NCBI GenBank assembly: GCA_016213785.1
Contig: JACQZQ010000068.1
Span: 1 to 37,280 of the forward strand
Direction of reading: 5' to 3'
Source: Acidobacteriota bacterium
GTDB lineage: Bacteria > Acidobacteriota > Blastocatellia > Chloracidobacteriales > JADJPF01
DNA length: 37,280 bases
The stretch's first letter is position 1. Each line of letters starts with the position of its first letter. Shown here piece by piece: positions 1,539-37,220 of this stretch. The position numbers were made by a program, and so were the translations under genes. Under the pieces are notes generated by a model that was not told the DNA's origin, searched no databases, and saw only the letters and a list, made by a program, of their open reading frames with translations.

Positions 1539-4500
1539 TTGTTCTTGTTTTATCAATTAAAGGCTTTAGATATTTTACGAGTGTTTTTACACTAGGGGAT
1601 GTTAGCATTGACTGATGATCGCCAGCTACATTATAGCATTCAAGAGGTTGTCTAGAGAGTTTATTCCAGCTAGAGGAAAAATCAAACGTTTTGCTTAAAA
1701 CCCCTTCACTAGCGCGGAAGAAAGCAATTTTGCCTGAATAAATTTTGGGCTGATAGTTGTAGAGAGCATGACAGTTAATTTTAAAGATTCTTAACAATAG
1801 CTCTTTCTGAGATATATCGATACCACCAGGCAAATCATTTATCTTATCAACGCACTCAAATTGACTAACCATATCTAGTCGATTTACTTCATTTATTAGC
1901 TCTTTCAAGTTTTCATCATTTTTTAAGTTGAGTGTGCTTGCAACTAAAACGGCTTCTGACGCGCTTAAATCATCAATATTAATACCCTTAAAAGGATTTT
2001 GCTTGTTCATAGTTGGAACCCAACTATCAAAAAGAGCTAATAGTTCTACCACGTCGTCTTTAGCTAATAGCTGTTGTGCCATTTCAAAAGCTATAACTCC
2101 ACCCATTGAATGACCTGCTAATTGGTATGGCCCTTCAGGTTGAACTTGTTTCATTAGTTCAATATAATGCGCGGCCATTTCTTCAATCGTTTCATGTGGT
2201 TTTTGTTCTGCGTTTAAGCCATTAGATTGAAAACCATAGAATGGTTGCTCTTTGCCAAGTTGGGAGGCAAGTTCAAAGTAACCTAGTACATTTCCTCCTG
2301 CTGGGTGAACAATAAAAATTGGTGTTTGTGTTCTGCCTTTTTGGATTTCAACAAGTGAAGACCATTCAGGAGTGTGCGGCTCTTTTAATAATTCACCAAG
2401 CCGCTCAATAGTAGCAGATTGAATAAGCATTGAGAGTGGCAATTTAACGCTTAATCGTTTTTCAATATTTGCCATCAAACGAGTGGCAAGTAAAGAATGT
2501 CCGCCTATATCAAAAAAGTTATCATTTATTCCTACTTTATCTATACCTAAAAGGTTTGAATAAATTTCTGCTAGCGTTTCTTCTATGGAGTTTCTAGGAG
2601 CTATATAAGGTGTTGGAGATAAATCAGAGCTTTGTTCTAAGGCTAAGTTAGTTAAAGCTTTATGATCTATTTTTCCATTAGCAGTTAAGGGGAATTTATC
2701 TATTCTAATGAAAAGGCTTGGCACCATATATTCTGGCAGTTTTTGTTTTAAGGTTTCTTTTATCTCTGCGCTTGTTACTTTTGCTGATTGCTTAATTACC
2801 ATATAAGCAACTAGCTTTTTCCCACTAGATTGGTCATCTTTAGCAATCACAATACATTCCACTACACTGGGGTGTTCTATTAACACAGATTCTATTTCGC
2901 CTAACTCAATACGAAAGCCTCTAATTTTTACTTGGTTATCATTACGACCTAGATATTCTATATCTCCATCTTCAAGATATTTGGCTAGATCTCCTGTGCG
3001 GTATAACCTTATTGTTGTGTTTGAGTTATCCAATCTATGATTAATAAAACGTTCTTCTGTTAACTCTTTCCTATTAAGGTAGCCGCGAGCAACTCCTGAG
3101 CCTCCTACATATATTTCACCTGTTACTCCAACAGGGACTCCAACAGGGACTTGTTTTTTATCTTTATCAAAAATAAAAAGTTGAAGGTCAGGAATAGCTT
3201 TACCTATTACACTTCCTAGTGTTGTATCATTTTTAGTTAATGGTCTATAGGTAACGTGAACTGTAGTTTCAGTAATACCGTACATATTGATAAGCTGAGG
3301 TTGTTTGTCTGAATGCCTATCAAACCAAGGTTTTAGACTATTTAATTCTAATGCTTCCCCTCCAAATATTACATATTTTAAGTTTAGCTTTTCTCTTTCT
3401 TGGTCTGCTTGCTCATCAACTTTTATTAATTGACGAAATGCTGCTGGAGTTTGATTAAGTACCGTAACTTGTTCTTTAATTAGAAGTTGATAGAAATCTT
3501 CAGGGTTACGGCTAATTAAATAAGGGACAATTACGAGCCTACCACCAAACACGAGAGCACCCCAAATTTCCCATACTGAAAAGTCAAATGCATAGGAATG
3601 AAATAATGACCATGCATCCTTTTCATTAAAATTAAACCACTCTTTAGTTGCTAACATTAAACGAGCAACATTAAAGTGAGTGACCATAACTCCTTTAGGA
3701 TTACCAGTTGAACCAGATGTGTAGATTATATAAGCTAGGTTTTCTGGTTGTACAATATCGGGGAGGTTATTGGAGCTTTGCTTGGAAATCTCTGCCCAAT
3801 CGCTATCTAAACAGATAAGTTTTGCAGTAGTTGAAGGCAATTTATCAACTAGCTTTTCTTGTGTTAGAAGTATGTTTAGCTTGGCATCGTCTAAAATAAA
3901 GGCTTGTCTATCTTGTGGATAAGTAGGATCTATTGGCACATAAGCCCCACCCGCCTTTAGTATTCCTAGTAATCCTATAATCATTTCTAAAGATCGCTCT
4001 ACACAAATCCCTACTAGCACTTCAGGGACAACACCAAGTTTTATTAAATGGTTAGCTAGTTGGTTTGCTTTAATATTTAGCTGTGAGTAAGTTAGTTTTA
4101 CACCTTCAAATACTAGAGCAATCGCCTCAGGTGCTTTTGCTACTTGTTCTTCAAATAGTTTAATGGTTGTTATGTTAGGGTAATTTAGAGGATTAGAGTT
4201 TAATTGCTGAACCAACCAGTTACGTTCTTCAGGAAGCACAATGCTTAGCTCGCCAATTCTGCTAATTCCACTAATTATTTGATCTGAAAGATGAAGTATT
4301 CGTTCTAAGAATTTGTTTTCATAAAATAAACTTTCATCATAAAAAAGAACTAGCTCTAAACTATTTTTTAGATCATCGATAATAAAGTGTATTTCATCTT
4401 CAGCAAAAGTTTTAGTATGTTCAATTTTACGATCATTTGATAATAAATTAGCTGTAGAGAAGTTATACCAATTAAAATAAAACTTTAGTCCTTCATCTTT

Positions 4501-7500
4501 AATTAATTGCTTTTGCATAAAAACAGAAAGGTTTTGCTTAGCACCTAGCTGTTTTTTGTACTCCTTAACTTGGGTAAGATACTGGTTAACTGTTGTATTT
4601 GCAGCAAATAAGTCCTTATTAAATATTGTAGGCACTACTTGATAAATACACCCTATTGTGTTGATATGTTCTGTTGGCCTTAGAGCAACTACTTCGTATG
4701 TAAGAAAACTATTAGTAGGATTAAACCATTTGTCTAAAACTAGTCCAAACAACGCTCTAAAGTAAACTGAGAGGCTATAACCAACGGATTTACAATATTT
4801 ACTGATACTGGCTAGCTTTTCTCCTTCTATAATTACTGGAATCCGTCTTGCTTGAGCCGCTTTTCCGGTCTTATGTGCTGCACTTAATGGTTCTATAGTT
4901 TTAACCTGCTCTGACCAAAATTCTATAGTCTCTTTATTATCAACTTGCGGGAGCATATCTTGAGTATAACTATAGAAAGACCCACTGCTAACACATGTAA
5001 GAGGCTGCCCATTTAATAAAGATTCATAAACTTTGCTAATTTTTTCTAGAAGTAATGTAACAGAATAAGCATCAAACAGTATATGGAACCAAGCCAGTAC
5101 AGAAACATATTCCCCTTGTAAGTCTTTAATTAAGTAGAACTTATAGGGGAATTCACTTTTGAGATCATATTGAATCTTAACCAAGCCTGTAATAAATTCT
5201 TTAATGTTGGCAGGATCTGTTTTGTGAGAAAGATCAATAAATTCAAATGGGACTTGACTTACTTCTGAAATAAACTGTATTGGTTCATCTCTGAGTAAAG
5301 TAAATCGGGTTTTAGTCATTTCCTCGCAGGCTGCTACCATTTCTATAGCTTGTTGCCAAATTGCTACATTTACGTTCTTTCCTATCCTGACCACTATACC
5401 ATCACTAAAAATAGTACTGTTTGGATTGAGCAAATTTGCTAAATAAAGATCTCTTTGTGTTGGGGTTAATGGCGATATTTGCTCAATGTGTGTACTTATT
5501 CCAACGAGATTAGCAATATCCTTATGGAAAAGTTGTATTGCTCTAATTCTTTGCTCAGGAGATTCAGCAACAGCATTTAATATTGTTAAGTAATTGTCAA
5601 TTATTGTCTTAATGGTGCTTTCATCAAATAAATCGATGCTATATTCCAACATTCCATGTAACTTTTCTTCTGTTTCTGTAATACGGATAAACAATTCTGT
5701 TACAGTTGTGGCAGTGTTAGAAAAAGATAGTTCCATGCTTAAGTTATCAAGTTGCCAGTCTGTTTTAGTAAATGTCCGTTGATAACTAAAGCCGATCTGT
5801 TGATGCGGCAAAACATTTTTATTACGATCAAATTTAAGCTGCTCAAAGATCTTTTCAAGAGGTAAATCTTGATGCGAGAATGCAGCAAAAGTTACGTCTC
5901 GCACACGTTGTAGTAGTTCGGAAAACTTTGGGTTTCCTGACAAATCATTGCGTATTATCAAAATATTTATAAAACAGCCAATAAGTGTTTCTACTTGTAC
6001 CTGATTGCGGTTTGCGGATGCTGAAGCAATGCAAATATCTTCCTGACCGGTGTAGCGATAAAGTAATACGTTGAGTGCTGCTAAAACAATATTGTAGAGG
6101 GTTACATTCTCTTTTTGTGCGAGTTTCTTTAACTTACTAGCTAGTTCTGGGGTGAAATTAAAATGAATAGTTGCTCCTCGCCTACTAGGAATACTTGGTT
6201 TGGGGCGATCTATAGGAAGTTGTAGTCCCTTTATCCCTTCAAGTTGCTGTTTCCAATAACCTAAATCTTTATTGAACCTTTCATTGGTATACCAATTACG
6301 TTCCCAATAAGCATAATCAGCGTACTGAATCTCAAGTTCAAGTAGTGGTGATGGTTTATTTTGGCTAAAGGCTTGGTAAAGTTGTGTTAATTCTCTAAAT
6401 AAAAAGTCAATTGATAAACCATCCATAGAAATATGATGAGTGGTTAATAGTAATAAGTGCTGGGTTGCTTCTAATTGTAACAACTTAATCTTTATTAATG
6501 GCAGTACTGTTAGATCAAAATTTTCTGTTGCTAATTGAGCAATTAAGCGCTCTGTTTCAACCTTGCGCTTATATTGATCAAGGTTTTGTAGGTCTATTTT
6601 TTCAATCAAGAGAGCTTCCATTGGTTTGACTATCTGGCTTGCAATACCATCAGTCATCACATAAGTAGTACGAAGTATTTCATGCCGATTAACAATCTCA
6701 TTAATGCTTTGTTCTAAGGCAGCAACCTGCAATTTTCCATTAATTTTAAGTGCAAATGGTAAATTGTAATAAGGGCTACTAGGCTCAAGCTGATAAGTAA
6801 ACCAGATACGTTGTTGTGAAAATGAGAGTGGAAGAGTCTGGTTTCTCGGTACTTTTCTGATAGTTGTTTTTGTCTGATTACTGCCTGTAGAGTTTACATT
6901 ATCTTCTACTAAATCTAATTGTAAAAACTTGAGTAATTCTGAGGTTAAACTCTGGGCTGTAGGAAAGCGTAGTATTAAGGTTGTTGGTAAGTCTATAGCA
7001 AAAGCTGTTGAAAGCCGATTACGTGTTTCAACAGCCATCAGTGAATCAAGCCCTAATTCTTGAAATGGTGTTTCTGGTAATAAACAACTTTCTGGCAATG
7101 CCAAGACATGTGCAACTTCTTTTGTAACTAATGATAGGAGTTTAGCTAACTGCTCATTTTGTGATAATGATTTCAAACTATCTTTTAAGGATAAAACACT
7201 CTTGGAATGAGAACTCTCTATTCGTGTTTTTAAGATTTTTGTCTTGATCATTCCACTTAACAAAACAGGAATAGATGTTTGTTTAGATAGGGTTTCTAGT
7301 CTTAATTTAGCCACTATCAATAGTGGTTCTGGTAGCGATATTGCTCTATCAAAAAGTAATAAACCTTCTTTTTCAGTGATAGCGTCTAACCCTTGACGCT
7401 TCATTCTAGCTAGTTCTGATGAACCAAGATGAGCAGTCATACCCGATCCTGATTGTTGCCATAATCCCCAAGCCAAACTCTGTGCAGGTAAAGCCTTACT

Positions 7501-36917: not shown

Positions 36918-37148
36918 ATGACTACCCCGTTAGCCCTTTGGCAAGAAAAAAAACAATATTTAGAATACCAATTAGCTATTACTTCTGATGCTAGCCAAAT
37001 GTATACACTACGTAAGCAAATACAAGAGTGTGAAACAGAAATTGCTAGACTACAATCTAAAGCTACTCAAGAGCAAGCAATAATGCCATTTAGACAAGGA
37101 GCAATCACTAGTTCCACTGTTGCTTTTATTATAATCAAAGAATTATAG
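36918..37148 (+). CDS. Small coiled-coil protein, 76 aa, resembling effector-associated coiled-coil modules
   Basis: Residues about 6-48 form a predicted amphipathic coiled coil (LWQEKKQYLEYQLAITSDAS, then LRKQIQECETEIARLQ). The pattern of a leucine-rich helix, an AI-x-SDxxQ turn and a LxKQIxEC helix resembles short segments often found at one end of multidomain cyanobacterial and other bacterial conflict or signalling proteins. That is a memory-based family resemblance, not a search result. The last 25 residues (from QAIMPFRQG) show no recognised domain. The protein is therefore stand-alone or the remnant of a larger one. No clear Shine-Dalgarno sequence precedes the ATG. It is divergent from the 85-aa gene and not obviously part of the PKS pathway. 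Confidence 0.65.
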   Translation: MTTPLALWQEKKQYLEYQLAITSDASQMYTLRKQIQECETEIARLQSKATQEQAIMPFRQGAITSSTVAFIIIKEL

Positions 37149-37220
37149 TATTTAACCAAAAAGATGAGAATTTGAAAAAGTTTTATGGTAGTATGTAAGA
37201 AAACTTAAGGAAAAAGAAAA

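Follow-up and report, generated by a model that had tools for sequence, protein, structure and literature searches.

The terminal module of the PKS-NRPS protein P0001 carries two consecutive condensation (C) domains, and the second of these, C', is best called a separate, new condensation subtype near the starter and DCL/dual lineages, judging from its sequence. The first domain, C1, reads as an ordinary LCL domain. The bonds that an assembly line can make are set by its condensation subtypes. The same tandem order was found in one distant genome, where the C' domains are specifically related and the domains around them are not.

The window, which denotes the whole analysed stretch of 37,280 nucleotides, contains a minus-strand assembly line on a single contig of a 6.4-Mb draft genome. 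This line is composed of P0003 (33765-36014), a fatty acyl-AMP ligase (FAAL) with a C-terminal ACP that loads the starter chain, P0002 (17490-33728), an upstream PKS of three modules, and P0001 (1522-17493), a protein of 5323 aa with the order KS-AT-DH-KR-ACP, KS-AT-DH-KR-ACP, C1-C'-A-PCP-TE. All features of these three genes lie on the minus strand. The ACP that feeds C1 (6943-7134; residues 3454-3517) was recognized by a profile match, and C1 itself (5530-6834) by a Pfam match and by its position within the LCL clade. C' occupies positions 4174-5502, and it is followed by the A domain (2650-4098), the PCP of the terminal module (2395-2583) and a type I thioesterase domain with the motif GHSMGG (1573-2325). 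The A domain bears the code DFWNIGMVHK, which corresponds to Thr, and the predicted product of the assembly line is of the fatty-acid/polyketide/threonine type. Apart from C1 and C', no C domain was found in this draft genome. A preliminary description of the gene had read it as ACP-C-C'-A-PCP-TE, with threonine as the module's substrate and with C' at residues 3998-4440; domain profiles and the A code agree with that reading throughout.

C' is an intact condensation domain rather than a fragment of one. It belongs to the Pfam Condensation family (PF00668) with 124.6 bits, as compared to 332.7 bits for C1 and a cut-off of 30.6, and its match spans profile positions 2-429 of 456. As the preliminary description had stated, neither a carrier nor an A domain separates the two C domains, because C1 ends near residue 3988 and C' starts near residue 4007. 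The junction between them (5476-5529) is about 19 aa long, and no carrier remnant was detected in its 19-20 residues. The linker between C' and the A domain comprises about 48 residues, the length in ordinary modules being 48-49, and the A-PCP-TE part follows directly. The reading frame of C' is uninterrupted, and its codon-position composition (GC1 0.447, GC2 0.307, GC3 0.244) resembles that of neighbouring domains. A structure prediction with AlphaFold, one of the checks that had been proposed, modelled C' as one complete C fold with a mean pLDDT of 76 and a pTM of 0.72, based on a shallow alignment, while the model of the C1-C' didomain was unusable (pLDDT 32). The best PDB matches of the predicted C' structure include SrfA-C, CmnI and the RzmA starter domain, with Z values of 28-34 to C domains.

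The motifs of C' depart from those of a canonical domain. C1 keeps the complete active-site motif HHISMDG (6418-6438; residue 3686 onward), whereas C' shows FHILFDA (5068-5088; residue 4136 onward), in which the first His is replaced by Phe and Gly by Ala, and the catalytic second His and Asp are kept. Both motifs were found as initially described. No HH pair occurs anywhere in the C' sequence of the window. The C2 motif RHExLRT, which accompanies a complete HHxxxDG in LCL domains, is altered to CEEMTKT, a change that the preliminary description does not mention, and the HQDxP-type motif is degenerate. Of the key residues defined by Rausch et al. (PMC1894796), equivalents of Trp202 and Arg278 are kept in the C' domains of both the window and its homologue. 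The C2 arginine (Arg62) is absent from both, and it is likewise absent from two starter-type sequences, that of EntF and an N-terminal C domain from Mycetohabitans. In starter domains, C2 and C4 are unconserved, which has been attributed to a broader substrate range (PMC1894796).

Phylogenetic analysis gives C' a clade to itself, in trees without representatives of the interface, Cy, modAA, X and SgcC5 types. In a tree of 37 rows, the two C' sequences group exclusively with each other (100/100) and have DCL domains as their sister (98/92), and both C1 domains fall among LCL domains. When starter and dual rows are added, the C' clade persists (100/100), and C', starters and DCL+dual constitute one group (82/99) whose internal order is not fixed; the best tree sets C' beside two starter-type rows, weakly and not significantly (77/54). 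In this larger tree, C' lies outside the LCL clade (95/95), the dual clade (100/100), the DCL+dual clade (98/96) and the E clade (100/99). Constraining C' to join DCL+dual lowers the likelihood by just 0.3 lnL (p-AU 0.497), and forcing it into LCL lowers it by 13.7 lnL (p-AU 0.114), so that LCL membership is disfavoured. The own clade, the small cost of DCL+dual and the poor fit of LCL together suggest a separate subtype near starter and DCL domains. The phylogeny proposed in the preliminary description has placed C' outside the LCL clade, although an LCL position is not formally rejected by the AU test.

Several established subtypes also differ from C' in other features. A DCL domain follows an E domain, whereas an LCL-type C1 precedes C' in both examples, and a starter is the first C domain of its line, whereas C' is internal and stands behind C1. 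The dual E/C subtype was rejected by the tree and by motif, as C' does not have the N-terminal HHxxxxGD. The E subtype was rejected by the E clade, and the Cy subtype because FHILFDA and HHLLFDG stand in place of DxxxxD.

The search for other C-C' arrangements that had been recommended returned a single true homologue of C' in a phylum sample of several hundred genomes. It is encoded on JAHZIX010000035.1, from the MAG Deltaproteobacteria bacterium P_S1_bin.14, and its match (E 2.8e-73) was of a different magnitude from all others in the sample; the region of the locus has 62% GC. The open frame starting from 93292 has the order C1-C'-A-PCP-TE, identical to that of the window, and the C1-C' junctions are nearly equal in length. 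The two C' domains are reciprocal best matches (29% identity, 250 bits), the next best match reaching 86 bits. In contrast, the flanking domains show no such specificity: C1 takes rank 47 of 92, A takes rank 68 of 99, and neither PCP nor TE stands out. Because C1, A, PCP and TE are not specifically shared and the C' pair is specific, C' appears to have been kept as a unit. The same order and reciprocal-best C' domains in otherwise unrelated genes argue for a coherent subtype and against an assembly error or a deletion relic.

Forty-eight residues are identical in both C' domains and rare elsewhere, and they are densest in GLKFYFNxYxF, which is GLKFYFNYYRF in the homologue and corresponds to 11 residues at 4459-4491 of the window. 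An N-terminal signature, likewise of 11 residues (5440-5472), is near-identical to PLTGTQRDLYL of the homologue. The active-site motif of the homologous C' is complete (HHLLFDG), so the loss of the first His and Gly is confined to the window, where it may lower the activity of the domain. The motif states of the two loci are reversed: the homologue combines a canonical C' with HHIVADD in C1, in which Gly is changed to Asp, while the window has the opposite arrangement. Two other origins were also considered and rejected, namely a recent duplication of C1, as C1 and C' have about 17% identity, and an assembly artefact, as the same order occurs in an independent assembly.

The subtype is at present defined by two sequences, and searches for it at profile depth were confined to the phylum. 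No third member was found in plasmids or in the 162 genomes of the window's class, where the best matches are ordinary C domains with about 20-26% identity, nor by profile search of the homologue's class (149 genomes) and the phylum sample (~395). Several of the best plasmid matches, when examined, proved to be C domains placed after an E domain. Scans of genome contigs and viral contigs with short exact patterns, which reach close relatives only, also gave no further member. Literature searches on tandem C domains found little published.

The residue loaded by the module is one guide to a proposed function of C'. The last three A domains of the homologue have the common code DIWE[LM]TADDK, for which a literature search found no published assignment. 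Genes for SbnA and SbnB, both above NCBIfam cut-offs, are located just upstream of the homologue's NRPS genes, which suggests that the terminal A domain probably loads 2,3-diaminopropionate and that DIWE[LM]TADDK could be a Dap code. In both C'-bearing modules, the loaded residue thus seems to offer a nucleophile on its side chain, being Thr by an exact code in the window and probably diaminopropionate in the homologue. The coincidence in two of two modules may be due to chance, since such residues are common, and the preceding module of the homologue has the same A code without C', which indicates that the residue alone does not demand C'. The wider cluster at about 60668-99015 of JAHZIX010000035.1 contains, besides SbnA/SbnB and the three A domains, KS-AT, an ACP-aminotransferase and an E domain.

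The role that we favour for C', albeit tentatively, is to acylate the terminal residue a second time. According to this proposal, C1 would join the upstream polyketide or peptide chain to the terminal residue, and C', with a starter-like donor side, would transfer a further acyl moiety delivered by CoA or by a free-standing acyl carrier. The alpha-amine and the side chain would serve as the two acceptors, the latter through the Thr beta-OH in the window and probably through the beta-amine of diaminopropionate in the homologue. Release by the TE would then give a branched, two-tailed or differently cyclised product. This role is preferred because the slot between an LCL domain and an A domain holds C' as a conserved unit, a TE ends both modules, and both residues seem to carry a second nucleophile. 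Extra C domains reported elsewhere fit the same picture. In icosalide, an embedded internal Cstart acylates Ser (PMC8949500), and in kribbellichelin, the two modules of a TE-bearing NRPS have an additional C domain between them, ahead of the Orn module, for which a role in linking two chains through the delta position of OH-Orn is proposed (PMC9962454). No dedicated acyl donor for C', such as a free ACP or an acyltransferase, was identified. The fuller proposition, that C' founds a new subtype moving between lines as a unit, by which a terminal module acylates the side chain of its own residue with two condensations per module and yields branched two-chain products, is rather unlikely to hold in all its parts.

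The main rival regards C' as a platform that forms no bond itself, comparable to the interface domain of siderophore synthetases or the glycopeptide X domain, and that recruits a trans-acting enzyme to modify whichever aminoacyl or peptidyl group the terminal PCP carries. We judge it somewhat unlikely. The damaged motif of the window C' agrees with such a function, and so does a synthetase of Eleftheria terrae P9846-PB, in which a tandem of LCL, a C domain with HHIVADR and A(Asn) is accompanied by a TauD/TfdA dioxygenase gene in the cluster; this suggests that the slot between LCL and A can accompany residue modification. However, the E. terrae domain stands outside the C' clade (p-AU 0.063 against joining) and gives no useful BLAST match, and the homologous C' retains a complete HHLLFDG. 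Moreover, a Pfam scan of proteins from the homologue's cluster detected neither a dioxygenase nor a P450, and the window genome has a single TauD homologue, which is located on another contig, beside a transporter-like gene, the window contig being truncated at its left end.

The E. terrae tandem is of interest in itself, as an independent occurrence of the arrangement with a candidate interface-type domain. It is encoded on plasmid NZ_CP106952.1, at residues 3913-4805 of the protein, and the A codes of the synthetase, which we take to be that of clovibactin, read Phe-Leu-Lys-Ser-Asn.

An improbable alternative is that the usual amide bond is formed by C', with C1 either idle or working on the acyl chain from upstream, as in modules of the PCP-E-C-A order. 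The canonical length of the C'-A linker is consistent with this, and the succession carrier, C fold, C fold, A equals that of PCP-E-DCL-A modules. DCL domains are also the closest to C' in BLAST, PDB and fold searches, and the homologue, with HHIVADD in C1 and HHLLFDG in C', shows the expected distribution of motifs. The window shows the reverse of the prediction, as its C1 is a complete LCL domain and the motif of its C' is damaged.

Still less probable is that C' helps to release the chain, by esterification or macrocyclisation for instance, instead of or together with the TE. Both examples sit in TE-bearing terminal modules, and an extra, unassigned DCL* domain has been suggested for ring closure in miuraenamide (PMC10051162). 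Nevertheless, release C domains are usually placed after the last PCP, whereas C' precedes the A domain in a module that has a full TE. The homologous C' shows the HHxxxDx14Y spacing, of which the window C' lacks the first His, but ordinary LCL domains show it as well, and hence it is not diagnostic of esterification. Finally, a functionless relic of an A-PCP deletion from C1-A-PCP-C'-A-PCP-TE, a reading to which the damaged motif and long branch of the window C' might point, is strongly disfavoured and very improbable, as the preliminary description had already held, since a distant genome conserves the tandem with its subtype-specific residues and an intact motif, C' lies outside the LCL clade of the tree, and frame, codon composition and junction bear no trace of such an event.

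C' can be compared with several known systems. Among starter C domains, the embedded Cstart of icosalide is reported as an internal extra domain (PMC8949500), as C' is, and the loss of the C2 Arg is common to C' and two starter-type sequences; C' differs from starters by its terminal TE module, by about 13-15% identity to solved starters over the fold alignment, and by its own clade. DCL and dual domains provide the best sequence and fold matches (SrfA-C, PvdL C3, TycB C1) and occupy, like C', the place immediately between a C-fold domain and A, but C' is preceded by LCL rather than E, falls outside their clade once starters are included, and has degenerate C2, C4 and C6 motifs. Interface domains, which partner a siderophore beta-hydroxylase, and X domains are likewise C folds added beside a normal C domain and could recruit a partner, whereas for C' no partner gene was found among the proteins scanned and the homologue keeps HHxxxDG. 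The extra C domain of Krb24 from the kribbellichelin pathway, a possible parallel to C', stands in a TE-bearing NRPS ahead of a module for a residue that offers a second nucleophile (PMC9962454).

Division of one module's work between two C-fold domains is not without precedent. Tandem cyclisation domains of the VibF/AngN type share it in this manner, and C' differs from them by not having the DxxxxD motif. Similarity limited to C' in two lines whose flanking domains are all different is unusual and resembles the behaviour of a plug-in part, which would be useful for product prediction and NRPS engineering. Should C' attach a further acyl chain, products will be mispredicted by genome-mining tools that overlook the domain or mark it as inactive.

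Two further features flank the assembly line. P0004 (2-1462, plus strand) is the end of another PKS gene, with an AT remnant, an ACP and a thioesterase, arranged tail-to-tail with P0001; it is cut off by the contig start, and it may share the cluster of P0001 or sit in a neighbouring one. At the opposite end, a small open frame (36919-37150, plus strand) starting ATGACTACCCCGTTAGCCCTTTGGCAAG looks like a short coiled-coil protein.
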